From an uncultured Myxococcales bacterium (GTDB lineage: Bacteria; Myxococcota_A; UBA9042; DTJE01), in the NCBI GenBank assembly GCA_903847405.1, contig CAINDP010000210.1, positions 1 to 33,956 on the forward strand: a stretch of 33,956 nt of DNA. Direction: 5' to 3'. The stretch's first letter is position 1. Each line of letters opens with the position of its first letter. Made by a program: the position numbers and the translations under genes. Shown one piece after another: positions 8,610 to 33,956 of the stretch. The notes beneath the pieces are model-generated. The model searched no databases. It was not told where the DNA came from and saw only the letters and a list, made by a program, of their open reading frames with translations.

Positions 8610-8984
8610 GTGAAGTTGACAACGGATCACATCGAAGCCCTAGTTGCAGCCGTGCTGGCCGTGAACAACTATCGTCTGGAGAAGGTCTGGGCCCAGTTAC
8701 CCGGACTCCAAGCCGCAGGGCTGACGGATCCAGAATGGGTGGCAGCGGCGGACCTGGGCGAAGTCGTAGTCCGGCTGACCGCTTCGGGCCATGACCGCGG
8801 GATGCTGGCTGGACTGATCGCCGACCGGCTGCAGACGATGATGCAGGCCGTGGTTGCCGGTACGCTCGACCCCCTGCCGGACGCCCTCAAGCGCGGGGAC
8901 CGTGACGCTGCCGTGGGAATCCTCTGCACGGCAAAGGGAATCGGCCCCAAGGTCGCTGACAATGCCCTGATGCTGATGAAGTAG
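8610..8984 (+). CDS. Truncated HhH-GPD-like protein (helix-hairpin-helix)
   Basis: This 124-residue protein starts at the GTG at 8610, with GGAG about eight bases before it. The helical order and the end, KGIGPKVADNALML, resemble the first domain of endonuclease III-type DNA glycosylases, whose hairpin reads LPGVGRKTA. The lysine at the catalytic position is kept. The protein stops four residues after the hairpin, so the catalytic Asp and the iron-sulphur part of true glycosylases are missing. It follows the regulator by 33 bp and is probably on the same message, ahead of the restriction enzyme. It could be a DNA-binding accessory or an eroded enzyme. Confidence 0.6.
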   Translation: MKLTTDHIEALVAAVLAVNNYRLEKVWAQLPGLQAAGLTDPEWVAAADLGEVVVRLTASGHDRGMLAGLIADRLQTMMQAVVAGTLDPLPDALKRGDRDAAVGILCTAKGIGPKVADNALMLMK

Positions 8985-9036
8985 CGCAACGAACCTAAGT
9001 CACCGACATTGGCCTTCCGCCGGGCTCATCGCGAAC

Positions 9037-9065
9037 TTGTCGTTCCGGACCCGCCGGCCTATTCT
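9037..9065 (+). promoter_or_regulatory. Candidate promoter of the type IIG enzyme
   Basis: TTGTCG (9037-9042) and TATTCT (9060-9065) are separated by 17 bp and lie 30 bp before the ATG at 9095. Each element matches the sigma-70 consensus at four of six positions. Found by eye. Confidence 0.45.
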
Positions 9066-9094
9066 CGCCAGACTGATCCTCTGGCAGGGTGTTC

Positions 9095-12919: not shown

Positions 12920-13210
12920 TTGCGTTGCTTGGCGCGGAAGACCCCAGCCCCGCCGAGGATGCGCCAAACGCGCAGGACAACCGCGCAGGCCGACTGCCTC
13001 GCGCGCGATTGCGCCGATCATTCGCAGGTGACTGTGGCGGGGCGCCCGAGCGCCACCCTTCCCAGCCAGCCACTGCCGCCAGCAACATCTTCGCCTCGGC
13101 TTCGAGCCCTAATGGGCGCGTTCATCGCGTTCATCGCCCAGTGCCATACCCGGTATCATGACCTTCCTCGGCGAGCCTGATTTCATCAACATGCCCTGCC
13201 TCAAATCCTA
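12920..13210. other. Non-coding gap after the type IIG gene
   Basis: I see no supported gene between 12920 and 13280. A hairpin with 6-bp arms, GTGGCG (13034-13039) and CGCCAC (13051-13056), could end the upstream message but has no T-run. The direct repeat GCGTTCATC occurs twice at about 13119-13136. The downstream promoter begins at 13211. Confidence 0.4.
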
Positions 13211-13239
13211 TTGACGCAGTTCGCTCGCCTGGATAGCAT
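13211..13239 (+). promoter_or_regulatory. Candidate sigma-70-type promoter for the 13281 gene
   Basis: TTGACG (13211-13216) and TAGCAT (13234-13239) are separated by exactly 17 bp, 42 bp before the ATG. They match consensus at five and four positions of six. This is one of the best promoter candidates in the window. Confidence 0.6.
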
Positions 13240-13280
13240 CCTTCAACTGGTTCACAAATCTCTTTATCCGGGGGGTACAG

Positions 13281-14276
13281 ATGCAGCGTTTCTGCACGCT
13301 CGTTCTTTTCCTATCCGCATTCTGCTTGGCGAGCAACGCCACGCACGCACAGGGCGTGCCGACGCCACAGCAGACGGTACGGATGGCCGTCGCGCCGGCC
13401 CACAAGGGACCGCGGGTCAACGAGTTCACCGTTGAGGAACAGGTCGGCGGTGTCACGACGACGCACAACTATCGGCTCTATGTACTCCTGATCTACAATG
13501 ATCAAGAATCGTTGGAACTGGCCCAAGACTGCGACCCGACCTGGATTGAGAACAACACCGCGAGTTCCGTGGAAGGAGCATGGGCCTCTCAGGCGCCCGT
13601 CCCCTTGCTTCGGACCAAGAGTTATCTCGTCGTCTGTGCCTTCGAGAAGAACGGCACGGGGAATTGGGTCAAGAAGTCACTCAAGCAGATTGGGGTCACG
13701 TCAATACGAATGGTCACCAAGAACTCCGAGGTAGTGAACAACACCTCGGTCGATGCGAGTTTCGCCAAGTGGGTTGCCGCGGCCTCCGTATTGCCGATGA
13801 GCCTCCCAGCCCGGGACCTGCTGGAAAGGGACGAGGGGCGCTGGGCTCGCAACGCTCGCATGGCCATCGAGTTCCAGATCGAGAAAAGCACGCCTATCCC
13901 GGCCTGGATGGAGTTGCGGAAGATCGGCTACTTCCACGGAAGCCTGGAACTCGCGAACACCTACGGTTTCGCTTTCGGGGACAAGGGGAACGCCATCGCG
14001 ATGCCCCTGGTCGTGGCCCTCGGCGGCGACTGGCCGGTCATCCGTAATTCGGATTTCTACCTGGGTGTCCACGCCCTTCTCTCGCCGACGTTCAAGTTCG
14101 CTGAAGGAAAAATCTCGCAGGTCATCTCCGCAGCGGTTGGTGCGCGCTTCGACATCGGGGGATACGCCGGTATCGGCGCCGGCTATCTGATCGATTTCAC
14201 CGGCGACACGAAAGGCAACGCCCTGATCTTCCTTTCGATCGGTAGCGAAATCATGAAGGTTCTGGCGACGCAGTAG
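13281..14276 (+). CDS. Exported protein of unknown function
   Basis: This 331-residue protein has a signal peptide: a hydrophobic core in residues 4-18 and a likely cut after THA near residue 23. The ATG at 13281 is preceded by GGGGGT five to ten bases upstream. Residues 60-160 look mixed alpha/beta and contain three scattered cysteines. The C-terminal ~130 residues alternate Gly and hydrophobic residues (FHGSLELANTYGFAFG, GARFDIGGYAGIGAGYL), as in outer-membrane beta-barrel strands. I do not recognise the family. It sits inside the defence island but has no feature that links it to defence. Confidence 0.75.
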   Translation: MQRFCTLVLFLSAFCLASNATHAQGVPTPQQTVRMAVAPAHKGPRVNEFTVEEQVGGVTTTHNYRLYVLLIYNDQESLELAQDCDPTWIENNTASSVEGAWASQAPVPLLRTKSYLVVCAFEKNGTGNWVKKSLKQIGVTSIRMVTKNSEVVNNTSVDASFAKWVAAASVLPMSLPARDLLERDEGRWARNARMAIEFQIEKSTPIPAWMELRKIGYFHGSLELANTYGFAFGDKGNAIAMPLVVALGGDWPVIRNSDFYLGVHALLSPTFKFAEGKISQVISAAVGARFDIGGYAGIGAGYLIDFTGDTKGNALIFLSIGSEIMKVLATQ

Positions 14277-14387
14277 CAGGCCCTCCACTCTCGGACACGC
14301 CCGCCAATTCGGGAGCCTGCCCCTGGATTCACCATGTCGCAACCATCTGCGACTATCGCCAGCACCTGCCGAACCGGAGGCCCGCCG

Positions 14388-15272
14388 ATGTCCACCCCCG
14401 CGGATCCCATCCCGAGCGAAGTTCTCCCCGGGTTCCGTCAACTGGGCGACGATTGCCCCGTCAGCAATGCCTTCGAAATCTTCCAGGCCATCGGGACGGA
14501 ACCCCGCACCCTTGAGAGCGCCGTGTTGGCCGCGGTGGAGACTGGTGTCCCACGGTACCCGGTCACCGGGGTCACGGCGGCCTGTCAGGACAGGACGGGC
14601 CTGCCCGGCGGGCGGTACATCGTGGGCCCGGACCACGCGGCCCCCTGGATCCTGGACGTGATCGCCATCGGGGACCCCAGCCGGCTGGTGGCATTCATGC
14701 CGCTCCGCGAGCCCGGCCTTGGGGTGCAGGCGAAGTTCGTGGAGGCATCCGTCCTCCCGGAAGGCGTCGAGGCGTGGACGACGATCGAAGTCAACGACGT
14801 CGAATGGACCTTCTACGACACGCGGTTCTGCCTGTGCCGTGCGACGTACCAGCCCGGCGTGACCGCCCCGTGGCGACTTTCCGCGATCGCCGTACGGGTC
14901 GGCCCGGGCGGGGCCGACGACACCCGCGAGGAGGTCCTCCCCGCCAGTCGCGTCGATCCACTGGGCGACACCGTCGACATGACCGAGCTGTCCTACTTCT
15001 TCCCGTCCATGAATGGCCCGGGGGACGAGGCCCAGATCCGCGGCCGGATCCGTGCCGTGCGCAACGTGCGGTTCGGGGACGTGGACGCCTGGGAGATCGA
15101 TGTCGTCGTCCCCGCGGACACGAATGCCACCGAGTGGCCTGTCCTGCCGGTGCTGGTCGGTCGACCGGCATGGGCTGGCCTTCATGCGCCGATTGTCGGG
15201 GGCTTCCTGGAAGGCTTCGCCTGGGTGCAAGGCTACCGGGACGACGTTCCGTTCGCGACCGCGGTGGGGTGA
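14388..15272 (+). CDS. Hypothetical protein, probably cytoplasmic
   Basis: The ATG at 14388 follows GGAGG by seven bases and gives 294 residues. An in-frame ATG at 14334 lacks a ribosome site. No signal peptide or membrane span is visible. The middle contains many short beta-strand-like stretches (WTTIEVNDVEWTFYDTRF, RLSAIAVRVG), and residues 180-290 include MTELSYFFP and AWEIDVVVP. I cannot assign a family or function. It converges on the ATPase/TOPRIM pair with a 61-bp gap. Confidence 0.65.
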   Translation: MSTPADPIPSEVLPGFRQLGDDCPVSNAFEIFQAIGTEPRTLESAVLAAVETGVPRYPVTGVTAACQDRTGLPGGRYIVGPDHAAPWILDVIAIGDPSRLVAFMPLREPGLGVQAKFVEASVLPEGVEAWTTIEVNDVEWTFYDTRFCLCRATYQPGVTAPWRLSAIAVRVGPGGADDTREEVLPASRVDPLGDTVDMTELSYFFPSMNGPGDEAQIRGRIRAVRNVRFGDVDAWEIDVVVPADTNATEWPVLPVLVGRPAWAGLHAPIVGGFLEGFAWVQGYRDDVPFATAVG

Positions 15273-15333
15273 AACGCTCGCGGATGCGGGGCGACCCTGG
15301 GTCAACCCCAGTGCAGGCGGGACGCAAACGCGC

Positions 15334-15918
15334 TCATGGCAGCATGTGCGGACCAGCGGGAACTGCCCCAAGGGCTCGGGCGACGATCCGCACCAACCGG
15401 TCGAAGGACGGCAGTGCAGCCCGGACCAGGTCACGACGTTCTCGCGGCCCCCTTGCGGCGCGATTCAACGCAATGTCGCGTACGTTCAGGCCGGGCTTTT
15501 CGGCCAAGGGCTGCAGGCCCTCCACCCAGCGAATCGCGTCGATCAGGCTTTCCAGGTTCGATTCCAGGAGCACCAACCGGTCGGCCAGGATGACCCCGGC
15601 GGGCGCCACTTTCGCGTCGAAGGCAGTGCGGATCGCACTCTTGCATGAGTTGCCGGGCAGGTTGAAAAGGCCTCGTACTTTGTCCTCGTCCAACACGGCG
15701 ACCAGCCGAAACGCCGTGGCGGAATAGCCGGCATTTTCGCATTCCTTCACGACGTTCCCATTCCCCTTGCAGGGCTTCGAGTCAATCGACTCCCGGACCA
15801 AACGCAGGTCCGTCGCGGCCTCGTCGGCGACGCAGGCGCACAGGAAGGCGTGGGGGCCGTATCCCCTTGGCGGCTGGCCTTGTGCAAGACGATCCTCGAA
15901 CAGAACCCGAATCTTCAT
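15334..15918 (-). CDS. Possible TOPRIM-like partner of the OLD-type ATPase
   Basis: This 194-residue protein begins with a beta strand ending in an acid (IRVLFEDR, Glu8) and later has AVLDEDK with Asp77 and Asp79. An early Glu and a later DxD are the metal-binding marks of the TOPRIM fold, which supplies the nuclease in OLD, GajA and AriB-type defence proteins. The Gly that normally follows the Glu is missing, so this is tentative. Its ATG overlaps the end of the ATPase gene by 4 bp, so the two are translationally coupled, and the ATPase has no TOPRIM domain of its own. Together they could be a split OLD-like system. The partner does not look like the HNH protein of Septu. Confidence 0.65.
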   Translation of the reverse strand: MKIRVLFEDRLAQGQPPRGYGPHAFLCACVADEAATDLRLVRESIDSKPCKGNGNVVKECENAGYSATAFRLVAVLDEDKVRGLFNLPGNSCKSAIRTAFDAKVAPAGVILADRLVLLESNLESLIDAIRWVEGLQPLAEKPGLNVRDIALNRAARGPRERRDLVRAALPSFDRLVRIVARALGAVPAGPHMLP

Positions 15919-17108
15919 CGCTCGTCCTCCGCCGGGGTCTCGGGACGAATCACCAGCGCCTCCTGACCGGCGCTGCGCAGATCACCGTACCCCCTGTACC
16001 CGTCCAGCCAACGTGCCAGAGCGTCAGGGTCTGGTCGGGCAAGACGCGTGTGGCGGCCCTTGGCCAGTTCGCAGACGACGACCGAACTGGCTGGCTGGGT
16101 CAGGTAGTCCAGGAATCGATCCGAATGTGTCGCCACCAGCACCGGTCGGGTCGTCGCGATGGATTCAAACAGTCCGACGGCCCTGGCCAGGAGAGCCGGG
16201 TGCAGATGAAGGTCCGGCTCATCGAATGCCAGCAACGAACCCGTGCCGGGCAGCCGAAGAAGGACCACCAATCCCAGCCACACGACCATGCCGTCCGAAA
16301 GTTCGCTGCCCTGGATGAGGCGATCCATTCCCCGGTACTTGATCGCGATCGACACGTACCCGCCGTTCGGCGCCACCGGCGTGGTCACCGTCTCCAGGTC
16401 CTCCCCGAGTCCCAGGCGGATGTACTCCAGCGTTTCCTGCCAATGCGTCTCGCCGAAGTTGCTCCGCAAGGCGAACAGGGTGCTGGCCAGGTTTGCGGCG
16501 CGCCTTTCCAGAACGGTGGTAGGCATCAGCATCGACGCTTCACGCACTGGCGAGCGAGTTTGCGAACCCTGGGCGATCCAGGAAGGCGTGACGTCAAAAG
16601 GCACGTGGACTTCGATGGCCCGGAGTGCCTCCCGAACGATGGACACCCGTTCCGGCGCCGCGCCTCCCAGAAAGGAGATCGCCGGCCGGTCCGGGCTCGG
16701 GGCATTGTGTGGCCCCCCACCAGCAACGTCCAGCCTGGTTCCGACCCGCACGAACACGGGATCGGGGCCGCCGCCGCCCGAATAGGCAATCAGTCGCTCC
16801 TGGCCCACTCCGCCGGGGGTCAGCACGATGGAGTAGTTCAGCGAGTCCGCCCCGTTCCTCAACGTCACTGCCAGGTCCAGCGACTTGGGGCCCGGTTGAA
16901 TCAGGGACGTGCCCGAGTGGATCGCGTTGAAGTCGTACCAGAAATTCTCCCCGGAAAGGCGCCGCAGGATCTCCAGCGCTTCGATGATCGAACTCTTCCC
17001 GACTCCGTTCTCGCCGATGAGGACCGTCAGCGGGCCGAGTTTCAGCCTGACGTCGGCCAGGCAACGCAGGCCCTTGATTCGAACCTCGGCGAGTCGGAAT
17101 CCTTCCAT
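15915..17108 (-). CDS. OLD/AAA15-21-type ATPase
   Basis: This 397-residue ATPase has the order of OLD-like and RecF-like proteins. Walker A is LIGENGVGKSS near residues 30-40, an ABC-like signature region is GSELSDGMVV, and Walker B is LLAFDEPDLHLHP. A downstream ATHSDRFL histidine motif follows. A C-terminal nuclease domain is absent, so the gene ends about where OLD proteins would continue into TOPRIM. Related ATPases are sensors in defence pairs such as PARIS (AriA) and Septu (PtuA). The ATG at 17108 has GGAGG six bases upstream. The stop overlaps the next gene's start by 4 bp. A possible -10 element TAAGAT lies about 45 bp upstream on the reverse strand. Confidence 0.85.
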   Translation of the reverse strand: MEGFRLAEVRIKGLRCLADVRLKLGPLTVLIGENGVGKSSIIEALEILRRLSGENFWYDFNAIHSGTSLIQPGPKSLDLAVTLRNGADSLNYSIVLTPGGVGQERLIAYSGGGGPDPVFVRVGTRLDVAGGGPHNAPSPDRPAISFLGGAAPERVSIVREALRAIEVHVPFDVTPSWIAQGSQTRSPVREASMLMPTTVLERRAANLASTLFALRSNFGETHWQETLEYIRLGLGEDLETVTTPVAPNGGYVSIAIKYRGMDRLIQGSELSDGMVVWLGLVVLLRLPGTGSLLAFDEPDLHLHPALLARAVGLFESIATTRPVLVATHSDRFLDYLTQPASSVVVCELAKGRHTRLARPDPDALARWLDGYRGYGDLRSAGQEALVIRPETPAEDER

Positions 17109-17169
17109 CGGGCACCTCCGAGCCAGCGAACCGGTCGCGGGGCGTATCTTACCTTGTTATCGGGATGAG

Positions 17170-17198
17170 TTGACACCGTGGACCATCGGCGCGATGAA
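17170..17198 (+). promoter_or_regulatory. Candidate promoter of the DUF262/HNH gene
   Basis: TTGACA (17170-17175) is a perfect -35 element. At 17 bp comes GATGAA (17193-17198), a poor -10 element. It lies in the 141-bp gap between the two divergent defence genes. Confidence 0.4.
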
Positions 17199-17249
17199 TG
17201 CCCGCGTTCGGTAAACCGCCGAAGAGGACCCACGGGAGGCCGTTGAATC

Positions 17250-19157
17250 ATGGCAGGATCCGCGTTCCAGACGAATCCCATCGACCTCGATGCACTGCTG
17301 GACGATTGCGAAAGCGGCGTTCTGCAACTGCCGGATTTCCAGCGCAGTTGGGTCTGGGACGAAGACCGCATCAAGAGCCTGCTGGCCTCGATTTCCAGGG
17401 CCTTTCCCATCGGGGCGTTGATGTCGCTCAGCACGGGTGGTCCCGTGGATTTCAAGCCTCGCCCGGTTGAAGGCTCACCGAGTCGTGCAAAGGAAGCCAC
17501 GCCTCAATCCCTGCTGCTGGACGGCCAGCAACGCATGACTTCGCTGTACCAGGCCACCATTCGAGGCAAGGTCGTCGAGACGGTCACCCCGAAGAAGAAG
17601 AAGGTGAAGCGCTGGTTCTACATCGACATCCGCAAGACGCTCGACCCTTCGGTAGACCGTGAAGAGGCGATCGTCGGCGTCCCCGAGGACCGGGTCATTC
17701 GAACCGATTTCGGCCGTGAGACTCACCTGGACCTTTCGTCACCTGAACTGGAGTACGCGGCCCTGATGTACCCGGTGTCCCAGGTCTTTGACTGGGACAA
17801 GTGGCAGGACGGCTTCGACCAGCACTGGCGCGGTGACCAGAACGAAAAGGTCCGCGACGAATTCCGGGCCTTCAAGCGCCAGGTTCTGGAAAACTTCAAG
17901 TACTACCGCGTACCGGTCATCACGCTGGACCGATCGACCTCCAAGGAGGCGGTGTGCGTCGTTTTCGAAAAGGTGAACACCGGAGGCAAGGCGCTGGACG
18001 CCTTTGAACTGGTGACCGCGATGTACGCTGCCTCGGGGCACGAATTGCGGAAGGACTGGTACGGGGACGACGGGACGAAGGGACGGCATCGGCGGTTCAA
18101 GGAAACCCTTCGGCCGGCCGATTCCGACGCCGGCATCATCGCGGCAGTTTCGAATACGGATTTCCTGCAGGCGATTTCCCTGTTCCATACGCGAGATCGC
18201 AGGCGGGCGGCGGAAGCCGCAGGAAAGCAGGGCAAGGAACTGCCCGCTGTTTCAGGGAATCGGCAAGCCCTGTTGAACCTGCCCCTCGATGCGTACAAGC
18301 GGTACGAAGCCCAGGTGGAAAACGGCTTCGTGCGCGCGGCCAAGTTCCTGCACATGCTGCACATCTACCGGATATTCGATCTGCCGTACCAGTCACAGAT
18401 CGTTCCGCTGGCGGCCATTCTTTCCGAGATCGGCGACGCGTGGGAGCACGAAGCGAACCGCGCCAAACTGGTGAGTTGGTACTGGAATGGAGTCTTCGGC
18501 GAACTCTATGGTTCCGCCGTGGAAACGCGCATCGCGCGCGATTTCATGGAGGTGCCGGTCTGGCTGGCGGGCGGTCCCGAACCATCCACGGTTCGCGAAA
18601 CCATCTTCCGCGCCGACCGGTTGAAGACCATGAGGATGCGCCTGTCCGCAGCCTACAAGGGGATCAATGCGCTCCTGATGAAGGAAGGCGCCAAGGACTT
18701 CCGTTCAGGGCAGCGGTTCGACCACACCGTGTTCTTCGGCGAGAACGTGGACATCCACCACATCTTCCCCCAGGACTGGTGCAAAAAGCACGGCATCAAG
18801 CCAGGCGTCTACGATTCCATCATCAACAAGACGCCGTTGTCGTACAGGACGAACCGGATCATCGGAGGTGTTGCGCCGTCCGAGTACCTGGCGAAACTTG
18901 AACGAGGCGATGGTGCCACGCCCCCGATCGACGCAGCAAGACTCGATATCTACCTCACGTCCCACCTGACGGATTCGTTGCTGGTGCGTGCCGACAACTT
19001 CGGCGCCTTCATGGAGGACCGACAGAATCGGTTGTTGGCCCTGATCGAGCAGGCAACCGGCAAGCCCATCTACCGGGGCGACGCCAAGGAGGAAGGCGAG
19101 GATGTCGATGGCGACGAGGATACGGTCGAGGCCGAACTGACGATTGCATCGACGTGA
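17250..19157 (+). CDS. DUF262/HNH protein, GmrSD-like type IV restriction candidate
   Basis: This 635-residue protein starts with a DUF262 (ParB/Srx-like) domain. It has LQLPDFQRSWVWDEDRI near residues 25-41, LLLDGQQRMTSL near 88-99 (Asp91) and VFEKVNTGGKALDAFEL near 240. The C-terminal half has an HNH-type motif, VDIHHIFPQDW, near residue 500, followed by LSYRTNRIIGG and APSEYL. In GmrSD and related enzymes DUF262 binds and hydrolyses nucleotides and the HNH part cuts DNA with modified bases. GGGAGG lies 11 bases before the ATG at 17250. The acidic tail (residues 610-630) is probably disordered. It diverges from the ATPase pair, so the three may or may not act together. Confidence 0.88.
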   Translation: MAGSAFQTNPIDLDALLDDCESGVLQLPDFQRSWVWDEDRIKSLLASISRAFPIGALMSLSTGGPVDFKPRPVEGSPSRAKEATPQSLLLDGQQRMTSLYQATIRGKVVETVTPKKKKVKRWFYIDIRKTLDPSVDREEAIVGVPEDRVIRTDFGRETHLDLSSPELEYAALMYPVSQVFDWDKWQDGFDQHWRGDQNEKVRDEFRAFKRQVLENFKYYRVPVITLDRSTSKEAVCVVFEKVNTGGKALDAFELVTAMYAASGHELRKDWYGDDGTKGRHRRFKETLRPADSDAGIIAAVSNTDFLQAISLFHTRDRRRAAEAAGKQGKELPAVSGNRQALLNLPLDAYKRYEAQVENGFVRAAKFLHMLHIYRIFDLPYQSQIVPLAAILSEIGDAWEHEANRAKLVSWYWNGVFGELYGSAVETRIARDFMEVPVWLAGGPEPSTVRETIFRADRLKTMRMRLSAAYKGINALLMKEGAKDFRSGQRFDHTVFFGENVDIHHIFPQDWCKKHGIKPGVYDSIINKTPLSYRTNRIIGGVAPSEYLAKLERGDGATPPIDAARLDIYLTSHLTDSLLVRADNFGAFMEDRQNRLLALIEQATGKPIYRGDAKEEGEDVDGDEDTVEAELTIAST

Positions 19158-19164
19158 GGCACGG

Positions 19165-20283
19165 CTACTGCCGCTTCAAAACCAGGTGATCGGTATACGT
19201 GACGTCGTCCGTGCCGTCATCGTCGGTGTCGTCGCTGTCCGTGAACTCGACGACCATGCGCGATCCGTCCACGCAGAAGGGCTGGCCCGCCGCGGTCCCG
19301 GAGGAACCGGTCTTCACGATCGACAAAACTGTGCCGGTGACGGTCCACGTTCCCGTCACTTCCTGCCCCGGCTTGGTCTCCTCGCCGCCCGCGCACTCGC
19401 ACCGACCGGTGACGTAGGTGCAGGTCAGTTTCGCCTGGGTGGCGATCCCGTCGCAGGCCTCCTTCATGGTCGTGCTGGTGTCGCCCGGTGCGTACTTGGC
19501 GATGACGCCGGCCAGGCACGCGTCGTTCATGTAGACCGTGGACTTCATCGTCGCGCCGAGGTTCTGCGTGCAGGTCTTGTCGGCGGCGAACACGGCCGTG
19601 CCCGTGTAGTTGATGTCGATGATCGCCCCGCTGTTGTTGTCCTGCCCGCAGACCGGCACGTCCGTGAACATGGAGGAGGTATCGATGGGGCGCGCCTGGA
19701 GGCAATAGTCTTCCACCACCCAGCTTCCCGTCGGATCGCCGCCACACGCCGTGAAGGCCAGGTCCTCGCAGGCCCCGCCCTCGCTGACGATCGTCGCGGT
19801 GTCGAGCCGGATCGCGTAGCGCGAGAAGTGCGAAACAGCACCCTGGACCAGGTCACCGGCAACCGTGCTGCCGGCAACGGGACTCCACTGGGCGCCGTCC
19901 AGCCACACCAGCACGGCCTTCTTGCCGTCGGGCACCGCGCCACCCAGCTTCAACGCCAGGGTGACGGGCGTCAGGAACGCCGTTCCGTCGGGCCCGAAAT
20001 TGAACACGTGCGAACCCAGCAGGTCCGCCTGGGGGGACTGCGCCGCATCCTCGGCCAGGACCGTGATGGTGGTGTCGGCCGCCAGCGCATTTCCGGGAAT
20101 CGTCACGCTGGCCGCACCCGAGGCCAGGGCGACCGTGCCACCCGTCGCCGCGGTGACGGCCGAGGAGGCGGTTTCGCCCACGGTGCCCAGCGGGACGGCC
20201 GTGTCGTCGGAGGTCCCCCCGCAGGTCATCGCAAACATGAACACGGCGCACAGCGCCAGCACCTGGATGATCCGGTTCCTCAT
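19165..20283 (-). CDS. Exported or lipid-anchored protein with ZU5-like domain
   Basis: The ATG at 20283 (372 residues) is preferred because AGGGG lies about eight bases upstream; the open frame begins ten codons earlier. Residues 1-22 form a signal sequence ending FAMTC, a weak lipobox. Residues 38-130 (GGTVALASGAASVTIPGNAL, then FGPDGTAFLTPVTLAL) resemble the ZU5-like domain common in surface proteins of these bacteria. The remaining ~230 residues carry ten or more cysteines, probably disulphide-bonded. The function is unknown. It ends 7 bp from the stop of the convergent DUF262 gene and has its own candidate promoter. Confidence 0.78.
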   Translation of the reverse strand: MRNRIIQVLALCAVFMFAMTCGGTSDDTAVPLGTVGETASSAVTAATGGTVALASGAASVTIPGNALAADTTITVLAEDAAQSPQADLLGSHVFNFGPDGTAFLTPVTLALKLGGAVPDGKKAVLVWLDGAQWSPVAGSTVAGDLVQGAVSHFSRYAIRLDTATIVSEGGACEDLAFTACGGDPTGSWVVEDYCLQARPIDTSSMFTDVPVCGQDNNSGAIIDINYTGTAVFAADKTCTQNLGATMKSTVYMNDACLAGVIAKYAPGDTSTTMKEACDGIATQAKLTCTYVTGRCECAGGEETKPGQEVTGTWTVTGTVLSIVKTGSSGTAAGQPFCVDGSRMVVEFTDSDDTDDDGTDDVTYTDHLVLKRQ

Positions 20284-20330
20284 TGGTTTTCCCCTTCGGA
20301 AGTAGTGAAGCACTCTGTTGGAGCGGGCGC

Positions 20331-20359
20331 AGGTTACCCCCCTGGGGCGGAGGCGTCAA
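20331..20359 (-). promoter_or_regulatory. Candidate promoter of the ZU5-like protein gene
   Basis: On the reverse strand TTGACG (20359-20354) and TAACCT (20336-20331) are separated by 17 bp, about 48 bp before the ATG at 20283. The -35 element matches five of six positions. Confidence 0.5.
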
Positions 20360-20395
20360 TCGAGAGTTGCCGCCCCGTGGCGACCCACCTTGCCG

Positions 20396-20424
20396 TTGAA
20401 CGATTGCCCGGGTTCCACTACCAT
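20396..20424 (+). promoter_or_regulatory. Candidate promoter of the HAD gene
   Basis: TTGAAC (20396-20401) and TACCAT (20419-20424) are separated by 17 bp and lie 85 bp before the ATG at 20509. Both match consensus at four of six positions. Confidence 0.45.
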
Positions 20425-20508
20425 CGCGTCGGGTGGAAGGGGGCCGGGACTGCCGTGCCGCCGCCATCATGGGTGTTGGGGTGCCGTGGAACCGCAGGGG
20501 AGTTTCTG

Positions 20509-21282
20509 ATGTCTGACGCAACCCGGATCAACGTGCCGGAGTTCCTGAAACGCGTTCAAATCCTGGATGAACCGAAGTTGGCGCTGTTCGACGCGGACGG
20601 GACGCTCTGGGAAAACGACATCGCCGACGACTGCACCGTCTGGATGATCGGCACCGGGCGCATCCAGACCGGCGCGCACTGGCCGCAGTACAAGCAGACC
20701 TACGCGGACGACGCCCAGGAAGGCTGCCGCTATCTCCTCAGCTTCTACAAGGGCATGCCGAAGGCGGACCTGACGCGCCACGTGCAAGCCTACTGGGACG
20801 AGTTCATGAAGCTGGACTACATCGCGGAAGCGATCGTGGTCCTCGAGGACCTGGCCGCCAAGGGATTCAAGATCTGGGTCGTCACGGGGTCGCCGACGGA
20901 CTTCCTGCTGCCGTTGTTGACGAAGCTCCCGGTCGACAAGATCGTCGGGATGGACTTCGACGTGGACGCGAACGGAATCCTGACGGGCCTGCACGGCGGG
21001 ATCAGTTGCGCCGGTCCGGGCAAGGCCGAAAAGGTCCTCAGCCTGTGGAACGATCCGATCCAGTTCGCCGCGGGAAACGCCATCCTGGACGAGGCGATGA
21101 TGCGCCTGGCCCGCGACGTCGTGTGGGCGGTCCATCCGCATCCGGAACTGGAAAAGATCGCGCTGCACGAGGGCTGGGAAATCAAGAAGTCCCACAAGCC
21201 GCCCTACGGAACGGCCGGGTGGCTGACCATCCAGGAAGAACTGCACGAGCGGAACCTGCCGATCCCGGACTACCTGCGCTAG
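20509..21282 (+). CDS. HAD-superfamily phosphatase, phosphoserine-phosphatase-like
   Basis: This 257-residue enzyme has motif I, LALFDADGTLW, with nucleophile Asp28 and Asp30. Motif II is in IWVVTGSPTDF, and a later GPGKAEKV lysine and NAILDEAMM aspartate fit motifs III and IV. The insertion between motifs I and II (WMIGTGRIQTGAHW and so on) is helical, as in the phosphoserine phosphatase-like branch that acts on small phosphomonoesters. The substrate is not certain. GGGGAG lies six bases before the ATG at 20509, although the frame is open far upstream. It converges with the aminotransferase gene over 39 bp. Confidence 0.85.
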   Translation: MSDATRINVPEFLKRVQILDEPKLALFDADGTLWENDIADDCTVWMIGTGRIQTGAHWPQYKQTYADDAQEGCRYLLSFYKGMPKADLTRHVQAYWDEFMKLDYIAEAIVVLEDLAAKGFKIWVVTGSPTDFLLPLLTKLPVDKIVGMDFDVDANGILTGLHGGISCAGPGKAEKVLSLWNDPIQFAAGNAILDEAMMRLARDVVWAVHPHPELEKIALHEGWEIKKSHKPPYGTAGWLTIQEELHERNLPIPDYLR

Positions 21283-25762: not shown

Positions 25763-26407
25763 TCACGCCCGGCGGCGGGCCTCCTCGGCCGACTGGCGCC
25801 GCAGTTCGCGACGCCCCGGCAGGCCCAGTTTCGTCAGGATCCGGTCGTAGTACGTTTCGATCGTCCGCACCGACAGGCCCATGTGCGCCGCGATCTCCTG
25901 GGACCGCGCTTCCGTGCCCAGCAGGCGGTACACCTGCAACTCCTGCGGGCTCAGGACGTCCTCCGGGTCCAGAACCGGGCCCCGGGCCAGGGCATCGGCC
26001 ATGGCACGAGCCGCCCGCGGGCTGAGGAAGCGCTCGCCGGCCCGGACGCGGCGCACGCACTCCGCCAGGATCTCGGGGTCCTCGGGCTTCGTCACGTACC
26101 CCATCGCCCCGGCCGCGAACGCCCGCCGGACGTTGTCGCTGTCCGCGTGGACCGAGTACACCACGGCACACATCCCCGGGAACCGGTCCCGCACGGCCGC
26201 CAGGAAGTCCAACCCGCTCCCCTCCTCCAGCGACAGGTCCAGGACCACGACCTCCACCGGCACCTGTCCCAGCAGCCGGATGGCATCCCGGGCCGTTCCC
26301 GCCTGCCCCACGACATCGAACCCGCCTTCCGACAACAGTCCCGCGATGCCCTGGCGCACCAGGGGATGATCGTCCAGCAGCAGCAGCCGTGTCCGGCCCG
26401 TGTTCAT
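25763..26407 (-). CDS. NarL/LuxR-family response regulator
   Basis: This 214-residue protein has a receiver domain with Asp12/Asp13 (LDDHP), phosphorylation site Asp57 (VVLDLSLEEGSG) and Lys107 (YVTKPED). A LuxR-type helix-turn-helix follows (LSPQELQVYRLL, EIAAHMGLSVRTIETYYDRI). The ATG at 26407 has GGAGG four bases upstream and overlaps the stop of the kinase gene by 4 bp, so the pair is made together. The open frame extends to 26566, but that part has no ribosome site. Phosphorylation by the kinase should control DNA binding. No target promoter can be named, although the duplicated upstream regions at 27.6 and 31 kb are near. Confidence 0.92.
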   Translation of the reverse strand: MNTGRTRLLLLDDHPLVRQGIAGLLSEGGFDVVGQAGTARDAIRLLGQVPVEVVVLDLSLEEGSGLDFLAAVRDRFPGMCAVVYSVHADSDNVRRAFAAGAMGYVTKPEDPEILAECVRRVRAGERFLSPRAARAMADALARGPVLDPEDVLSPQELQVYRLLGTEARSQEIAAHMGLSVRTIETYYDRILTKLGLPGRRELRRQSAEEARRRA

Positions 26408-27648
26408 GTTGCCTCCACCCTGGTCGGGATCCGGCATTCGATCCGGGTCCCCCGACTGTTCGTGCCCGGGCCCATCGCGAAGGTTCCGCCCACCCGTTCC
26501 GCCCGCCACGCCATCGTCCGCAGGCCCAGTCCCAGGCCCGACCCGCCGTCGGGCGGCAGGCCGCACCCGTCGTCCTCGACCCGCAACGTCATGCCGCCCG
26601 GATCCCGGACCAGGGTGACCTCGATCCGCCCCGCTGCCGAATGCCGCATGGCGTTCGCCATCGCCTCCTGGGCGATCCGGTAGGCCTGGAGCGCCTCGGC
26701 CGGATCAGGGGACGGGCCTTCCCCCTGGGACCGGAACGTCACCTCGGCCTCGCAGACGCCCGCCGCCCGCCGGACCAGATCGTCCAGGGCACCCACCAGG
26801 TCGCGGCCCGCCAGCGCACCCGGGCTCAGTTCCCGTGAAAGGTCATGGATCTCGCGGATGGCATCCCCGACCGACTCGACAATCCCCTCCATCACCTCGG
26901 GTTCCAGGCCCTTCCCGGTCTGCAGACGGGTCTGCGCGCGCCGGGCCCGGATCAGGATCCCCGTCAGGTCCTGGCAGACCCCGTCGTGCAGGTCGTGGCC
27001 GATGCGGCGCCGTTCCCGCTCCCCCACCTCGATCAGTTCGCCCTCCAGCCGGACCCGGGCCGCGGCCTCGTCCTGCAGGCGCTCGACGGCGACCTGCTCG
27101 CGGCGGAGGGTGCCGACCAGATGCTGGCAGAACCACGCCAGCAGCAGGACGATGGGCAGGCCGATCCCGACCGCAGCGACCGCATGAAACAGCCACTCCC
27201 CATCGAACCAGGGCGGCGCGGTCGTCGGAAGGATCCCGACCTCCGTTGCCCACAGGGCCGCCACCAGGAACCCGAAGTCGATCAAGGCCAGGACCAGCCC
27301 GGTCCGCACGCCCACCAGAAACAGCATCGGCAACGGAAAGACCAGCATGACCACCCGGAACTCGTGGAAGATCCCGGCGCGGTACAGCATGGCGCCGGCC
27401 CACACCCAGGACGACAGGACCAGCAGGACGGCGCGCAGGACGGTAGGTGCCCGCCGGAGCGCCGCGGCCGTCACCACGAGGGCCCACCCCGCCAGGGACA
27501 CGGCCTTGAGGACGGGCGGGATGGAAACGACCAGGATCGTCGGCAGGACCAGGACCCCCTGCACCACCGCGATCGCCAGTGTGTAGGCGTTCATCGCCTT
27601 CCGGCGCCACGGCCCGATCGGGTCCTTGTCCGAGGTCCAGTCGCCCAT
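26404..27648 (-). CDS. NarL-type sensor histidine kinase with membrane N-terminus
   Basis: This 414-residue kinase has five or six membrane segments between residues 20 and 178 and no large periplasmic domain, so it may sense something in or at the membrane. The HisKA_3 box RERRRIGHDLHDGVCQDLTG places the phosphorylated histidine at His221. The ATPase part has EAMANAMRHS (N box) and DDGCGLPP. It is coupled to the response regulator by a 4-bp overlap. The ATG at 27648 has AGGGGG four bases upstream. A second ATG at 27594 would remove 18 residues that lie partly in the duplicated 27625-27793 sequence, so the true start is open. Confidence 0.88.
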   Translation of the reverse strand: MGDWTSDKDPIGPWRRKAMNAYTLAIAVVQGVLVLPTILVVSIPPVLKAVSLAGWALVVTAAALRRAPTVLRAVLLVLSSWVWAGAMLYRAGIFHEFRVVMLVFPLPMLFLVGVRTGLVLALIDFGFLVAALWATEVGILPTTAPPWFDGEWLFHAVAAVGIGLPIVLLLAWFCQHLVGTLRREQVAVERLQDEAAARVRLEGELIEVGERERRRIGHDLHDGVCQDLTGILIRARRAQTRLQTGKGLEPEVMEGIVESVGDAIREIHDLSRELSPGALAGRDLVGALDDLVRRAAGVCEAEVTFRSQGEGPSPDPAEALQAYRIAQEAMANAMRHSAAGRIEVTLVRDPGGMTLRVEDDGCGLPPDGGSGLGLGLRTMAWRAERVGGTFAMGPGTNSRGTRIECRIPTRVEAT

Positions 27649-27793
27649 GCGTCCCCCTGTCCCGCCGCCATGCTGTCACGGCCGAAGGTCCGTGCAGAAG
27701 CCGTGGTTGTGCCGACACGATTGTACGCAAACACGCCTACATCGACGACCGCAGCCCCGCGGCTACACGGCTTTACGCGACCGGGATAGCCTG
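27625..27793 (+). repeat. Direct repeat, copy A: upstream region of the 27861 gene
   Basis: This 169-bp stretch aligns without gaps to 31026-31194 at a constant offset of 3401 bp. By eye about three-quarters of positions are identical. The best blocks are GTCCCGCCGCCATGC at 27659, GGTCCGTGCAGAAG at 27687, TGTACGCA at 27722 and CTACACGG at 27763. The left end runs into the kinase gene. It contains the candidate promoter. Confidence 0.85.
27764..27792 (+). promoter_or_regulatory. Candidate promoter of the pseudo-alkylsulfatase gene
   Basis: TACACG (27764-27769) and TAGCCT (27787-27792) are separated by 17 bp, within the best-kept part of the duplicated upstream region and at the same relative positions as in the second copy. 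The -35 element is poor, so an activator may be needed. Confidence 0.4.
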
Positions 27794-27860
27794 CCGTCGT
27801 CGCCAAGAGCCGCCTGCAGGGCGACCCGCTGGACGGTGGGCACGTACACGAGGAGACACC

Positions 27861-30800
27861 ATGAACGCAATCCGGATCCGGAGGTTCGCCACGGTCGCGG
27901 CACTCTTGCTGGCCGCCGCGGCCTTCCCCGGCGCGGCGTCGGCCGACGTCCTCGACACGCTGAGCCCGCACTGCATCGCGTCGTTCTGCGAGGGCTACGT
28001 CGGGGACCCCGGGGCGGTCGCCTGCGCGGACCTGGCCCAGGCGGACTGCCTGACGCGACAGAATTGCTGGTGGCGCGACACGACGGCGCAGAACGCGCTG
28101 GCCGAGTCGGCGGCGACGGACTTCGGCGGCCAGTTGCTGCACCCGTATTCGGGTTCCTACTCGGGCAAGGCCGTCGATGTCTGGGTCTGGAACGGGCTGG
28201 AGGGGACGAACGTCATCCTCGTCGTGTCGGGGACACAGTACTTCCAGATTGGCAACGGCGTTTCGGACCTGGTGCGCGACGAGGCCCTGGCGGCTTTCCA
28301 GGCCGGGATCCCCGGCTTCGAAACGCTGACGGCATACGGCTACCTCTACAACACCGCCGAACCGGGGGTCAACGGCTCGACCTGGACCTCCGACACCGCC
28401 ATTCCCGTGCACGTCGCGCAGAGTTGGGTGACCGAAGTGCAACTCCGAAACCTGGCCTTGAACGCCCACGCGGCACGCTCGGCCGCTGTGCTCGGCGCAG
28501 GCCTGTCCTGGGGGCCCGACGGGTTCCTCGGGGACGGGAGCCTGTACGGCTGGGACCTCAGCGCGCCCACGTCGCCGCAGAAGCCGAACTCGCCGGTCAG
28601 CGAGACGTCGACGACCACGATCGCCATGGACGGTTTCCCGATCTTCCTGATCCCGGGCGGCCTGCCGTCCATCGTCACCGTGTACCTCCCGGCCCAGAAG
28701 GTTCTGATCCCGGGCTGGCCGTTCGGCACGCACTTCCCCGACATCGCGCCGCTGGATCGCGCGCCGCTGGACCCGTACAACGTGGTCCGAACCCTGAACA
28801 CCTGGCTCTCCCTCAATCCGAACGCCGTGGTCCCGCAGTACGGACCACCTGTCCTCGGGAACGCCAGTTCCATGGCGATGCTGACGGCCCAGCGGGACGC
28901 GGTCAGCTACGTCCAGAACGAAACCTTGCGCCGCATGAACCTGGGCGAGGACGTGGACACGGTGGCCGCGACGCTGGCGCTGCCGTCGAACCTGGCGGAC
29001 AGCCCCTGGAACCAGCAGGTCGCGACGACCGTGCCCGGCGTGGTGCGCGGGATCTACGCGCTGCGCCTGGGCTGGTACGGCGGCCTGCCGGCGGACCTGG
29101 CGCTGAAGGGACTGACGCCCGCCGAGCAGGCGGCCCGGCTGGCCGGTGTCGGGGGCACGGCGGCCCTGCTGACGGCGGCGAAGTCGGCCCTGGACGAGAA
29201 GACGGACACGGGCGCCCGATGGGCGGCATACGCGGCCCACGCGGTGATGGTGGCGGACCCGAACGGGGACGCCCTGGCCGCGAAGTGCATCTACTGGAAT
29301 GCCCTGCGACGCCTGGCCTTCGCGACGCCCAGCGCCCGCGAGCGCAACCTGTTCCTGTCCGAGATCGGGGCGCTGGGCGACCTGGCCGGGACCTGCGGCG
29401 CGGACGACGACGCCGACGGCACGACGAACTGGCTCGACTGCTCGCCCCGGGACGCGGGCGTGAACCCGGGCGCCACCGAGGTCTGCGACGGCAAGGACAA
29501 TGACTGCAACGGGCAGGTGGACGACGGGATCGCCCCGGTGGGCACGGTGTGCGGCAGCGGCGCCTGCGAGGCCACCGGCATCCGCAGTTGCATCGGCGGC
29601 CAGATGGTGGACGACTGCCGGACGGGCACGCCGATGGCCGAGGCCTGCAACGACATCGACGACGATTGCAACGGGATTGCAGACGACGGGATTGCCCCGG
29701 TGGCGACGACGTGCGGCCAGGGCGCCTGCGAGGCCGCCGGCACCAGCGGGTGCATCGGTGGCGCGTGGGTCACGAACTGCGTGCCCGGTACGCCGTTGAT
29801 CGAGGTCTGCGACGGCATGGACAACGACTGCAACGGCGCGGTGGACGACGACATTCCGACGGTGCTGTCGCAGTGCGGCGTCGGCGCCTGCACCGCGTCC
29901 GGCACGTGGACCTGCGTCGGGGGCACGCTGGTGGACTCGTGCGTCCCGACGGCGCCGTCCGTCGAACTGTGCGACGGCATGGACAACGACTGCAACAGCA
30001 CCGTGGACGACATCGCACCCCTGCCCACGACCTGCGGCGTCGGCGCCTGCGCATCGACTGGCGCGTGGGCTTGCGTCGGCGGGACGCTGGTGGATTCCTG
30101 CACGGCCGGCACCCCCGGCTTCGAGGCCTGCGACGGGATCGACAACGACTGCAGTGGCGTGGCGGATGACGGGATCGCGCCGGTCCCGACGACGTGCGGC
30201 ATCGGGGCCTGCACGGAGACCGGAATCCTGGCGTGCGCGAACGGGACGTGGGCCGAACTCTGCGTGCCCGGCATGCCGGCGGCGGCGGACGCCACCTGCG
30301 ACGGGATCGACGACGACTGCGACGGGCAGACCGACGAGGACTACGTCCCGGCGAGGTGCGGCGTTGGCGCCTGCGCGTCTGCCAGCCGCTGCGTGGCCGG
30401 GGTCCCGGGCGTCTGCCTGCCCGGAAGCCCCGCCGCGGAGGTTCTGGACGGCATCGACAACGACTGCGACGGAATCATCGACGAGGGGACGGCGTGCACG
30501 GCGAACAGCCAGTGCGCGACCGGCTTCTGCGCCGACGGCGTCTGCTGCACGTCGGCCTGCGGCGGCGGGCTCGCCGGGGACTGCCTGGCCTGCAGCGTGG
30601 CAGCCGGCGCGGCTGTCGATGGCACCTGCGGCCCGGCCGCGATGGGGACGGCCTGCCGGGCGTCGGCGGGGGTCTGCGACACGGGCGAGGCGTGCGACGG
30701 GGCCTCGACGGCCTGCCCTACGGACCTCTTCAAGTCTTCCAGCAAGGTCTGCCGGGTTTCGGCGGGCGCGTGCGATCCGGCCGAGACCTGCACCGGAACC

Positions 30801-30989
30801 TCGGCCGCGTGCCCGGCTGACGCCTACAAGCCCGCCGGCACCGTCTGCCGGGCGGCCTCCGGTACCTGCGATCCTGCCGAAACCTGCACCGGCGCGAACG
30901 TCGGGTGCCCGGCCAACCGGTTCGTTCCCAGCGGCACCACCTGTGGCGCCGGAAGGATCTGCCAGAACGGCGCCTGCAAGAAGCGCTGA
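27861..30989 (+). CDS. Secreted alkylsulfatase-like pseudoenzyme with MopE and Cys-rich repeats
   Basis: This 1042-residue exported protein has a signal peptide with a likely cut after ASA near residue 29. Residues 70-330 follow the metallo-beta-lactamase part of SdsA1-type alkylsulfatases. The zinc motif HSHVDH should lie in the strand read here as AYGYLYNTAEPG (about 158-169), and the later ligand His is replaced in PQYGPPVLG (about 325). Residues about 343-525 match the alkylsulfatase dimerisation domain (QRDAVSYVQNETLRRMNLG, IYALRLGWYGGLPADL). Seven MopE-type motifs (CDGxDNDCNGxVDDG) lie between about 540 and 880, then a disintegrin-like Cys-rich tail. GAGGAG lies five bases before the ATG. 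It is probably catalytically dead and used for binding. Confidence 0.8.
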   Translation: MNAIRIRRFATVAALLLAAAAFPGAASADVLDTLSPHCIASFCEGYVGDPGAVACADLAQADCLTRQNCWWRDTTAQNALAESAATDFGGQLLHPYSGSYSGKAVDVWVWNGLEGTNVILVVSGTQYFQIGNGVSDLVRDEALAAFQAGIPGFETLTAYGYLYNTAEPGVNGSTWTSDTAIPVHVAQSWVTEVQLRNLALNAHAARSAAVLGAGLSWGPDGFLGDGSLYGWDLSAPTSPQKPNSPVSETSTTTIAMDGFPIFLIPGGLPSIVTVYLPAQKVLIPGWPFGTHFPDIAPLDRAPLDPYNVVRTLNTWLSLNPNAVVPQYGPPVLGNASSMAMLTAQRDAVSYVQNETLRRMNLGEDVDTVAATLALPSNLADSPWNQQVATTVPGVVRGIYALRLGWYGGLPADLALKGLTPAEQAARLAGVGGTAALLTAAKSALDEKTDTGARWAAYAAHAVMVADPNGDALAAKCIYWNALRRLAFATPSARERNLFLSEIGALGDLAGTCGADDDADGTTNWLDCSPRDAGVNPGATEVCDGKDNDCNGQVDDGIAPVGTVCGSGACEATGIRSCIGGQMVDDCRTGTPMAEACNDIDDDCNGIADDGIAPVATTCGQGACEAAGTSGCIGGAWVTNCVPGTPLIEVCDGMDNDCNGAVDDDIPTVLSQCGVGACTASGTWTCVGGTLVDSCVPTAPSVELCDGMDNDCNSTVDDIAPLPTTCGVGACASTGAWACVGGTLVDSCTAGTPGFEACDGIDNDCSGVADDGIAPVPTTCGIGACTETGILACANGTWAELCVPGMPAAADATCDGIDDDCDGQTDEDYVPARCGVGACASASRCVAGVPGVCLPGSPAAEVLDGIDNDCDGIIDEGTACTANSQCATGFCADGVCCTSACGGGLAGDCLACSVAAGAAVDGTCGPAAMGTACRASAGVCDTGEACDGASTACPTDLFKSSSKVCRVSAGACDPAETCTGTSAACPADAYKPAGTVCRAASGTCDPAETCTGANVGCPANRFVPSGTTCGAGRICQNGACKKR

Positions 30990-30997
30990 CGGGCGTG

Positions 30998-31022
30998 CCC
31001 GGTTCCGCGACGGCGAACCGGG
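30998..31022 (+). terminator. Terminator-like hairpin after the 27861 gene
   Basis: CCCGGTTC (30998-31005) and GAACCGGG (31015-31022) form a perfect 8-bp stem with a nine-base loop, starting eight bases after the stop. There is no T-run, so it may act as a 3'-end stabiliser or need a protein factor. Confidence 0.5.
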
Positions 31023-31025
31023 GCA

Positions 31026-31194
31026 GTTGTCGGAGGTCAAGTCGCCCCTGCATCCCTCTGTCCCGCCGCCATGCGGTCATGTCCGGGGGTCCGTGCAGAA
31101 GGCGGGGCCGTGCGGACACGCCTGTACGCATTTCCACGTACGCCGCTGACGGTATCCTTGCGTCTACACGGTTTTCCGGGACCGGACTATCCTG
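31026..31194 (+). repeat. Direct repeat, copy B: upstream region of the ubiquitin-domain gene
   Basis: This is the second copy of the 27625-27793 sequence, ungapped at +3401 bp. After it the two upstream regions differ, but they converge again at the ribosome site (GCGAGGAGACCCC here, ACGAGGAGACACC in copy A), each followed by ATGAAC. Confidence 0.85.
31165..31193 (+). promoter_or_regulatory. Candidate promoter of the ubiquitin-domain gene
   Basis: TACACG (31165-31170) and TATCCT (31188-31193) are separated by 17 bp, about 72 bp before the ATG at 31266. Spacing and position are the same as in the first copy. The -10 element matches four of six positions. Confidence 0.45.
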
Positions 31195-31265
31195 AACCCA
31201 CCGCCCAGGATCCGCCTACGGGCCACCCGAGGGGGCGGTGCACCCCGTACCCGCGAGGAGACCCC

Positions 31266-33956
31266 ATGAACACCCAAACCCGAAAGTCCCGCACGTTGGC
31301 AGCCCTCGCGGCGGCGGCTTTCGTGACAACCCTGTTGGCGGCGGTCCCCAGCGCCCAGGCCATGCAGATCTTCGTCAAGATGGCCTCGGGCAAGACTCTC
31401 ACCCTCGAGGTCGAGCCCAGCGACGCCATCGAGAACGTCAAGCAGAAGATCCAGGACAAGGAGGGGATTCCGCCCGACCGGATCATCCTGACCTGGGCGG
31501 GCAAGACGCTCCTCGACGGTCGCACGCTGGCCGACTACAACATCCAGAAGGAATCGACGCTGCTGATGCAGGTCGCATCGCCGGAAGCCTGGACCCTGGA
31601 CGTCCTGTGGGAGTTCCCGCCCGAAACCGGAACGACCCCGTTCGGGACCGGTCCTACGTCCTTCGGCGGCCTGCTCGAGGACGCCGCCGGGACGTTGTAC
31701 GGGACGACGGTCGCAGGGGGCGACTACGGGCTGGGCCAGGTGTTCCGTCTGGACCGGGGCACGTCGCCCTACACGTTCACGACGCTGCACTCCTTTGACG
31801 GCACCGACGGCATGGGGCCGGCGGCGGGGCTGGCCTGGGGGGCCGGCGGGGTGCTTTTCGGAGCGACGTCAGGGGGGATCGACGCGTCCGGAAACGCGGT
31901 GATGGGCACGATCTATCGCCTGACGACGGAAGGAAACGCGTTCGAAACGCTGGTCGTCCTGGACCGGCCGGCGTTCCCGGAAGGGACGACGGGCGGGGGA
32001 TCGGAGGGCAGTTGCGACCCCGAGTCGGGGATATGTGCCCTGGAGGAGCTGTTCGCCAACATCAATGCCATGATCCAGGGAGTGGAGGCCGTCTGCGGCG
32101 GCCCCTTCGATTACGTAGCCGCGAACGGGGGCCAACCGCTGGAGTCGCCGGGGTGCGATTCCGACGATTTGATCTGCACCCTGGACCGCCTGGCGGCCCA
32201 GGGCCAGTACATTGCGAACGGCTGGCAGCACTACACCTTCGGCCCGGTCTCGGCACTGCTGGCGGGCCAGGGCGACCTGCTGCACGGGACCACGTGGAAC
32301 CGCAACACCTGCATGGGGACAGCCTTCACGGTCGCCCAGGACGGCACCGGTCTTGCGTTCCTGGACGGGTTCGACGTGACGTGGGCGGACGGGACGACGA
32401 CGGCGACGTCCGGCTGGGCGGGGCTGGCCCTGGGGCCGGACGGCCGCCTGTACACCTCGACCTTCGACGCAGACGTGGGTTCCGCCGTGGTGGCGCTGGG
32501 CTCGTCGGCGTGGACATTCGGGGAAGGGCCGAACCACCAGGTGCTGTACGCCGGCACGGATATCCTGCGGCCGCAGGGCACGCCGGTCTTCGGGGCGGAC
32601 GGGGCCCTGTACGGCACCGCGGCGGGCGACGGCAGCGCGGACCTGGGTGCCGTGTACCGCCTGGACCCGGGAGCCCGGCCGGCCACGTTCGCGGTGGCCC
32701 ACCGCTTCCAGGGGCTCGACGGGCAGGCCCCGGTTGCCGGACTGATCCGGGGCCCGACCGGCGCCTTGTACGGCACGGCCTCCGCGGGCGGCGCCCAGGG
32801 CATGGGCACGATCTTCCGCCTGGATCCGGGGACCGCGCCCGCGGGCCTGCAGACGCTGCACGACCTGGCGGCGGCCGAGGGCCAGGCGCCGGTGACGACG
32901 TTGCTGCTGGGCCGTGACAACCGGCTGTACGGCCTGGCCCAGGCGGGTGGCTTGATGGGCGGCGGCACCCTGTACCGTCTGTCCCCCCCCGACGCGGACA
33001 ACGACGGCGTGACCGCGATGACCGACTGCGACGACGGCGATGCAGCGCGGTTCCCCGGCAACCCCGAGGTATGCGACGGCCTCGACAACGACTGCAACGG
33101 ACTGGTCGATGACAGGATCACGCCGGTGGCCTCGACCTGCGGCGAGGGGGTCTGCGCATCGACCGGGACGCGGTCGTGTGTTGACGGCCGGATGGTGGAT
33201 ACCTGCGTGCCGGTGGCGCCGGACGACTGCGGCGTCTGCGGCGGCGGGAACCGCGACAAGGACTGCGACGGCGACTGCTTCGGCGGCAAGGTGATCGGCT
33301 GCGACACCGTCTGCGGCAGCGGCCTGGTCTGGGACGTCTGCGAAGTCTGTGCGGGCGCGAATGAGTGCGTGGGCTGCGACGGCGTTCCTTGGAGCGGCTA
33401 CGTTTTCGACGACTGCGGCGTCTGCGACGGCGGGAACCGGGACAAGGACTGCAACGGCGACTGCTTCGGCGGCAAGGTGGTCGGCTGCGACACCGTCTGC
33501 GGCAGCGGCCTGGTCTGGGATGTCTGCGAAGTCTGTGCGGGCGCGAACGAGTGTGTGGGATGCGACGGCGTTCCATGGAGCGACAAGGTTTTCGACGACT
33601 GCGGCGTCTGCAATGGCTGGAACCGGGACAAGGGCTGCGACGACGTGTGCTTCAGCGGCAAGGTGCTCGACCAGTGCGGGGTCTGCGGGGGCGACGGGAT
33701 CGACGCCACCCCGACGACCTGCGGCGAGGGCCTCTGCGCCTCGACCGGGATCCGGTCGTGCGTGGGGCCGATGGTCTTCCAGGATACCTGCGTGCCCCGC
33801 TGCACATCGGCGAACTGCGCCTTCCCGCAGGCCCTCCCCGGAATGGTCGTGGTTTGCCAGGGCACGGACCACGGCGACCAGTGCAGTCTGGCCTGCGACG
33901 CCTCCTCCGGGTACATCGGGACCCCGTCGGCCGGCACCGCGACGTGCGCCTATGGC
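31266..33956 (+). CDS. Secreted ubiquitin-domain protein with GloVer propeller and Cys-rich repeats (3' end cut by window)
   Basis: The frame is open from the ATG at 31266 to the window edge (897 codons), with GAGGAG at 31255-31260. Residues 1-32 are a signal peptide (RKSR, hydrophobic core, then AQA). Residue 33 is Met1 of a ubiquitin domain: [25 protein letters not shown] and [10 protein letters not shown]. By my alignment 53 of 67 positions equal human ubiquitin. Lysines 6, 11, 27, 29, 33, 48 and 63 are all kept. Leu8, Ile44, Val70 and Arg-Gly-Gly are not, so conjugation is not expected. About five GloVer-type repeats ([18 protein letters not shown]) follow between 134 and 575, then a MopE motif near 603 and 62-residue Cys-rich repeats from about 653. 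It is probably a surface or released binding protein. Confidence 0.9.
33222..33593 (+). repeat. Two tandem 186-bp (62-codon) coding repeats, third partial
   Basis: Units start at 33222 and 33408 and are nearly identical; a third begins at 33594 and diverges after about 90 bp. Each encodes [37 protein letters not shown] and CVGCDGVPW. The high identity points to recent duplication or gene conversion within the ubiquitin-domain gene. Confidence 0.9.

Follow-up and report, generated by a model that had tools for sequence, protein, structure and literature searches.

Introduction

Two-component operons of the NarX/UhpB class (HisKA_3) with a divergent target gene stand closest, among described regulatory systems, to the locus analysed here. 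Our locus has the same back-to-back layout, with conserved elements on both sides, but differs in that a second gene has received a copy of the target side and in that the relation between regulator and target is a candidate one. The locus also resembles a tandem (segmental) gene duplication: its two large genes are head-to-tail neighbours with an upstream region and C-terminal modules in common, and a fragment of the adjacent gene has been carried along, yet the N-terminal halves of the two genes are unrelated. For the second gene, the nearest counterpart is BfUbb, a ubiquitin secreted by Bacteroides fragilis (PMC3352274, PMC5705921), which, like our protein, carries ubiquitin immediately after the signal peptide and has no terminal di-glycine (PMC3352274). 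BfUbb is small and free-standing, however, whereas the ubiquitin described here is the N-terminal portion of a large, modular polypeptide that also has GloVer and MopE modules. Literature searches on promoter duplication returned nothing specific, and no description of a ubiquitin-GloVer fusion was found in the literature searched.

Results

The window (the whole stretch of 33,956 nucleotides that was analysed) belongs to a genome of 5.65 Mb in 273 contigs, 97% complete (W, or G000), and was compared with two congeners represented by MAGs (G001 and G002) and with more distant relatives. The features under study lie toward its right end.

25763-26407, minus strand: response regulator with Response_reg and GerE/LuxR-type HTH domains (Pfam PF00072, 3.1e-21; PF00196, 3.1e-10)
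26404-27648, minus strand: membrane histidine kinase with HisKA_3 and HATPase_c domains (Pfam PF07730, PF02518), divergent from gene 1
27621-27866, plus strand: copy 1 of the repeat, spanning about codons 1-9 of the kinase, the whole divergent intergenic region and the gene 1 start codon; orthologous in G001 and G002
27720-27725, minus strand: TACAAT, candidate -10 element of the kinase by consensus match only; kept in the three orthologs, TACAGG in copy 2
27764-27792, plus strand: candidate promoter of gene 1, TACACG-N17-TAGCCT; conserved in four sequences, not a match to the sigma-70 consensus
27861-30989, plus strand: gene 1, predicted exported protein of 1042 aa with an SdsA-like, alkyl-sulfatase-related N-terminal half followed by MopE and Cys-rich modules
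31022-31271, plus strand: copy 2 of the repeat, beginning about 33 bp after the gene 1 stop codon; kinase ATG gone
31165-31193, plus strand: candidate promoter of gene 2, TACACG-N17-TATCCT
31266-33956, plus strand: gene 2, predicted exported protein of at least 897 aa with a signal peptide, a ubiquitin domain, GloVer repeats, and MopE and Cys-rich modules; runs off the contig end

The start codon of the regulator, placed from an ATGA overlap in the sequence, overlaps the stop codon of the kinase, and kinase orthologs at E<=1e-40 were present only in G001 and G002 among 20 genomes searched. Elsewhere in the window, Pfam and PADLOC matches mark 3842-21279 as a defence-island-like stretch, which also encodes a WYL protein, an AAA_21 ATPase and a GmrSD-type protein in addition to the following.

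3842-5413: CBASS cyclase
5400-6647: SAVED nuclease-type effector
9089-12919: Type IIG-like methylase

The first-pass annotation had described a gapless 169-bp repeat upstream of two giant secreted-protein genes, and the repeat is real: positions 27625-27793 and 31026-31194 align without gaps at an offset of exactly 3401, with 129/169 positions identical (76%). Within-genome BLAST pairs the two copies at 77% identity (E 2.8e-30), and their local alignment score of 173 compares with a maximum of 39 in 200 shuffles. The sizes of the two genes bear out the rest of that description, gene 2 being cut by the contig end. When small gaps are allowed, the homology extends over the full lengths listed for copies 1 and 2 and reaches the start codons; left of 27621 identity is at background (45% over 27590-27620), and the right edge falls at codons 2-3 of both genes. 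The TACACG-N17-TA(G/T)CCT element was likewise confirmed in both copies. The ribosome site GAGGAG and the codons ATGAAC are common to both genes, as had been reported, but the likeness of the first codons goes only to about codons 1-2. An assembly chimera was considered as a source of the arrangement and rejected, the two genes having the same order and orientation in G002.

The repeat records the direction in which it was copied. At its left end, copy 1 takes in ~9 codons from the start of the kinase gene (~28 bp). In copy 2 these codons stand as a dead fragment with no kinase behind them, and the ATG has been destroyed by a CAT to CCT change (A to C, corresponding to position 27647). Since copy 2 has a kinase 5' end but neither a kinase nor the ATG, copying went from the kinase-gene 1 region to copy 2; the derived copy joins gene 2 at the gene 2 start codon. 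Such a non-functional piece of the neighbouring gene in the second copy is what a local duplication of a divergent promoter region would leave, as is a source copy that is conserved and single in relatives: G001 and G002 each have one copy, both at the orthologous kinase-gene 1 position.

We then consider how far the repeat reaches beyond this locus. BLAST, a four-sequence profile and a core-motif pattern detected no third copy in W's own genome, and no copy was found in 17 more distant relatives. The profile gave weak matches (E 0.001-1) scattered over nearly all genomes, which we took as noise, and the core motif gave one match with two mismatches (C242:30136), in a locus of which the 600 bp inspected appear to read as coding sequence of a sensor-type protein; the reversed pattern yields similar numbers of matches. 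The first-pass annotation had proposed a mobile or copied expression module that marks a larger regulon of surface proteins, an idea suggested by a repeat common to two different exported proteins. The genome-wide search that it recommended returned only these two copies, so that the further copies expected of a mobile element or dispersed module were lacking, and no transposase gene adjoining the repeat was identified in the window. One copy per congener, always at the kinase-gene 1 position, argues against both the mobile module and the larger regulon, and we regard this explanation as very improbable. As judged from these searches, the repeat is confined to this locus and is neither a genome-wide regulon nor a mobile element.

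The age of copy 2 was assessed over 27649-27793, where it is 74-78% identical to each copy 1, while the orthologous copies 1 are 84% (W-G001), 77% (W-G002) and 76% (G001-G002) identical to one another. Fourfold sites in the kinase and gene 1 coding sequences are 76-88% identical between W and G001 and 74-76% between W and G002; copy 2 differs from each copy 1 about as much as these sites do between W and G002. The best quartet tree places copy 2 with G002, outside W+G001, and disfavours a recent duplication from W (delta lnL 5.5, AU p 0.057), on 16 informative sites of which nine favour the best topology, four the recent copy and three the third topology. Three of those four sites fall in the kinase codons, and the kinase-side end groups copy 2 with W, perhaps as a trace of later conversion. 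We conclude with moderate confidence from these comparisons that copy 2 is older than the W-G001 split; it probably arose before the genus diversified.

Conservation within copy 2 is uneven. At positions identical across the three orthologous copies (W, G001 and G002; "invariant" below), copy 2 keeps 21/22 sites in the promoter-candidate block (27761-27793) and all 17 in the ribosome site and start codon, as against 19/30 in the leader between promoter candidate and ribosome site (Fisher p 0.008). Core plus ribosome site retain 38 of 39 invariant sites compared with 102/131 at all other positions (Fisher p 0.003), the blocks having been picked after the alignment had been seen. Invariant sites do not form longer runs than expected by chance (p 0.17), and selection is not needed to explain the overall identity of copies 1 and 2. 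That the promoter candidate and ribosome site are the best-kept parts suggests that copy 2 still drives gene 2, and the two copy 2 changes in the kinase-strand TACAAT are as expected if copy 2 serves gene 2 only. A scan for sigma-70 promoters (TTGACA-N16-18-TATAAT) found no site in either copy, TACACG and TAKCCT matching poorly. The repeat is probably a promoter common to genes 1 and 2. Of the earlier idea that a module places different exported proteins under one control, the copying and the common, well-kept candidate promoter and ribosome site stand, and the mobility falls away.

A conserved structured RNA leader, in place of a promoter, could also account for a region conserved in four sequences. 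However, the covariation term of RNAalifold is unfavourable, with compensatory change in only 2/60 pairs, there is no Rfam match, and the sequence closest to the ribosome site (27794-27843) is the least well retained. We regard this reading as very improbable.

From gene order, it is plausible that the neighbouring response regulator controls both genes. A search for an inverted-repeat operator turned up no more than a weak GTCCG-N19-CGGAC and, on opposite strands, a CCGTGYAG motif, which we did not find convincing.

The coding regions behind the two copies are largely different. The N-terminal halves are unrelated (SdsA-like in gene 1, ubiquitin plus GloVer in gene 2) and only the C-terminal MopE/Cys-rich part aligns, so the two genes lack the homology along the whole length that tandem gene duplication would give. 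In G002, genes 1 and 2 have ~1.9 kb of C-terminal modules in common at 75-80% DNA identity, and the best paralog of gene 1 is gene 2; MopE-type modules occur in 52/52 genomes searched. The signal peptides of the two genes are not alike, which weakens the case for duplication of a whole gene. Given the unrelated N-terminal halves, either a duplicated gene was rebuilt or the promoter alone was copied.

Export of both proteins is predicted from their N-terminal sequences. In gene 1, the N-terminal half (27861-29390) is related to SdsA-type alkyl sulfatases (PF14863; PDB 4nur, E 4e-22, residues 197-501). Nothing matched residues 30-196, and an HxHxDH metal motif was not evident in this half, which is possibly a non-catalytic relative of these enzymes; its predicted structure has a mean pLDDT of 41.

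In gene 2, the ubiquitin domain (31362-31577; PF00240, E 2.8e-20) directly follows the signal peptide and is identical to human ubiquitin at 53/72 positions, with seven of seven lysines retained. The C-terminal LRLRGG needed for conjugation is absent: in both G000 and G002 the domain runs into the GloVer region without RGG. The G002 domain (C46:15361-15567) matches human ubiquitin at 50/72 positions, and an exported ubiquitin protein of this type is thus present in two species of the genus. Ubiquitin-family matches occur in 4/52 genomes of the class. Small ubiquitins that appear to be exported are encoded in two further genomes of the class, one ending in LRLRGG (L069, on G021 C67) and the other in RLRKI (L070, on G024 C376). 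Within gene 2, positions 33222-33593 comprise two tandem 186-bp units that are 94% identical, a recent internal duplication, and the remainder of the gene may be found on, for example, contig C49 (L059), whose start is a closely similar module.

The neighbourhood of the two genes differs among the three species. W becomes homologous to both congeners precisely at the stop codon of the regulator (25763), and in the promoter-gene 1 block the homology extends as far as the gene 1 stop (30989). The flanking sequences are not the same in W, G001 and G002, and hence the neighbourhood is fluid. In G001, no gene 2 was detected beside gene 1. In G002, the gene 2 counterpart, which contains ubiquitin and GloVer-type regions, lies 2.4 kb past gene 1 in the same orientation (C46:15259-19794), with no detectable copy 2 between them and with unrelated DNA upstream of gene 2, so this promoter is not essential to gene 2. 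The interval holds an antisense group II intron with a reverse transcriptase (L031:13228-15161; RT ORF 13308-14843; Rfam RF02005, E 3e-45, and RF00029, 6e-5 and under its gathering score), whose 5' end, placed by eye on a GTGCC motif, is ~97 bp before the gene 2 ATG. Intron insertion alone deletes no DNA, and other changes must therefore also have been involved. G002 may once have had copy 2 and then lost it.

These observations bear on whether ectopic recombination copied the intergenic region alone to a site ahead of a pre-existing gene 2, replacing its upstream DNA up to the start codon. The junction at gene 2 codons 3-5, the differing signal peptides, and the G002 gene 2, with its unrelated upstream region and homology to G000 gene 2 that begins only at codon ~4, all fit such a promoter capture. 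On the other hand, the copy lies directly behind gene 1 in tandem, copying of a promoter alone leaves the common C-terminal modules unexplained, and the G002 region is disturbed by the intron and unrelated DNA, so that loss of copy 2 there is possible. We consider promoter capture rather unlikely.

Discussion

The reading that we favour, with reasonable though not high confidence, is that the divergent promoter region was duplicated locally, once and long ago, and became fused to gene 2, with copy 2 probably serving as the working promoter of that gene. A piece that starts at kinase codon ~9 and reaches into the unit of gene 1 would have been duplicated in tandem, and the N-terminal part of the second gene would then have been replaced; this origin is proposed because genes 1 and 2 also have their C-terminal modules in common, and the position of copy 2 just behind the gene 1 stop codon is where a tandem duplication would place it. 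Judging from the pattern of conservation, copy 2 most likely still provides the promoter, ribosome site and start codon of gene 2, while its kinase-directed half appears to be decaying. The divergent response regulator, by its place in the gene order, would control both genes.

A broader, tentative reading is that the two-component system of this freshwater myxobacterium may have recruited, by copying of its divergent promoter, a secreted, eukaryote-like ubiquitin fusion and a likewise secreted SdsA-like protein as a small co-regulated surface pair. As a regulatory finding the duplication itself is ordinary and restricted to one locus. Gene 2, as an exported ubiquitin-domain protein, is the more unusual element, and a specialist may be more surprised by it than by the duplication.

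The locus nevertheless shows legibly how copying of a divergent promoter can place a further gene under existing control, and comparison of three species reveals the source, the direction and an approximate age. Gene 2, for its part, deserves notice as one of the exported ubiquitin-domain proteins of bacteria, of which few kinds have been studied.
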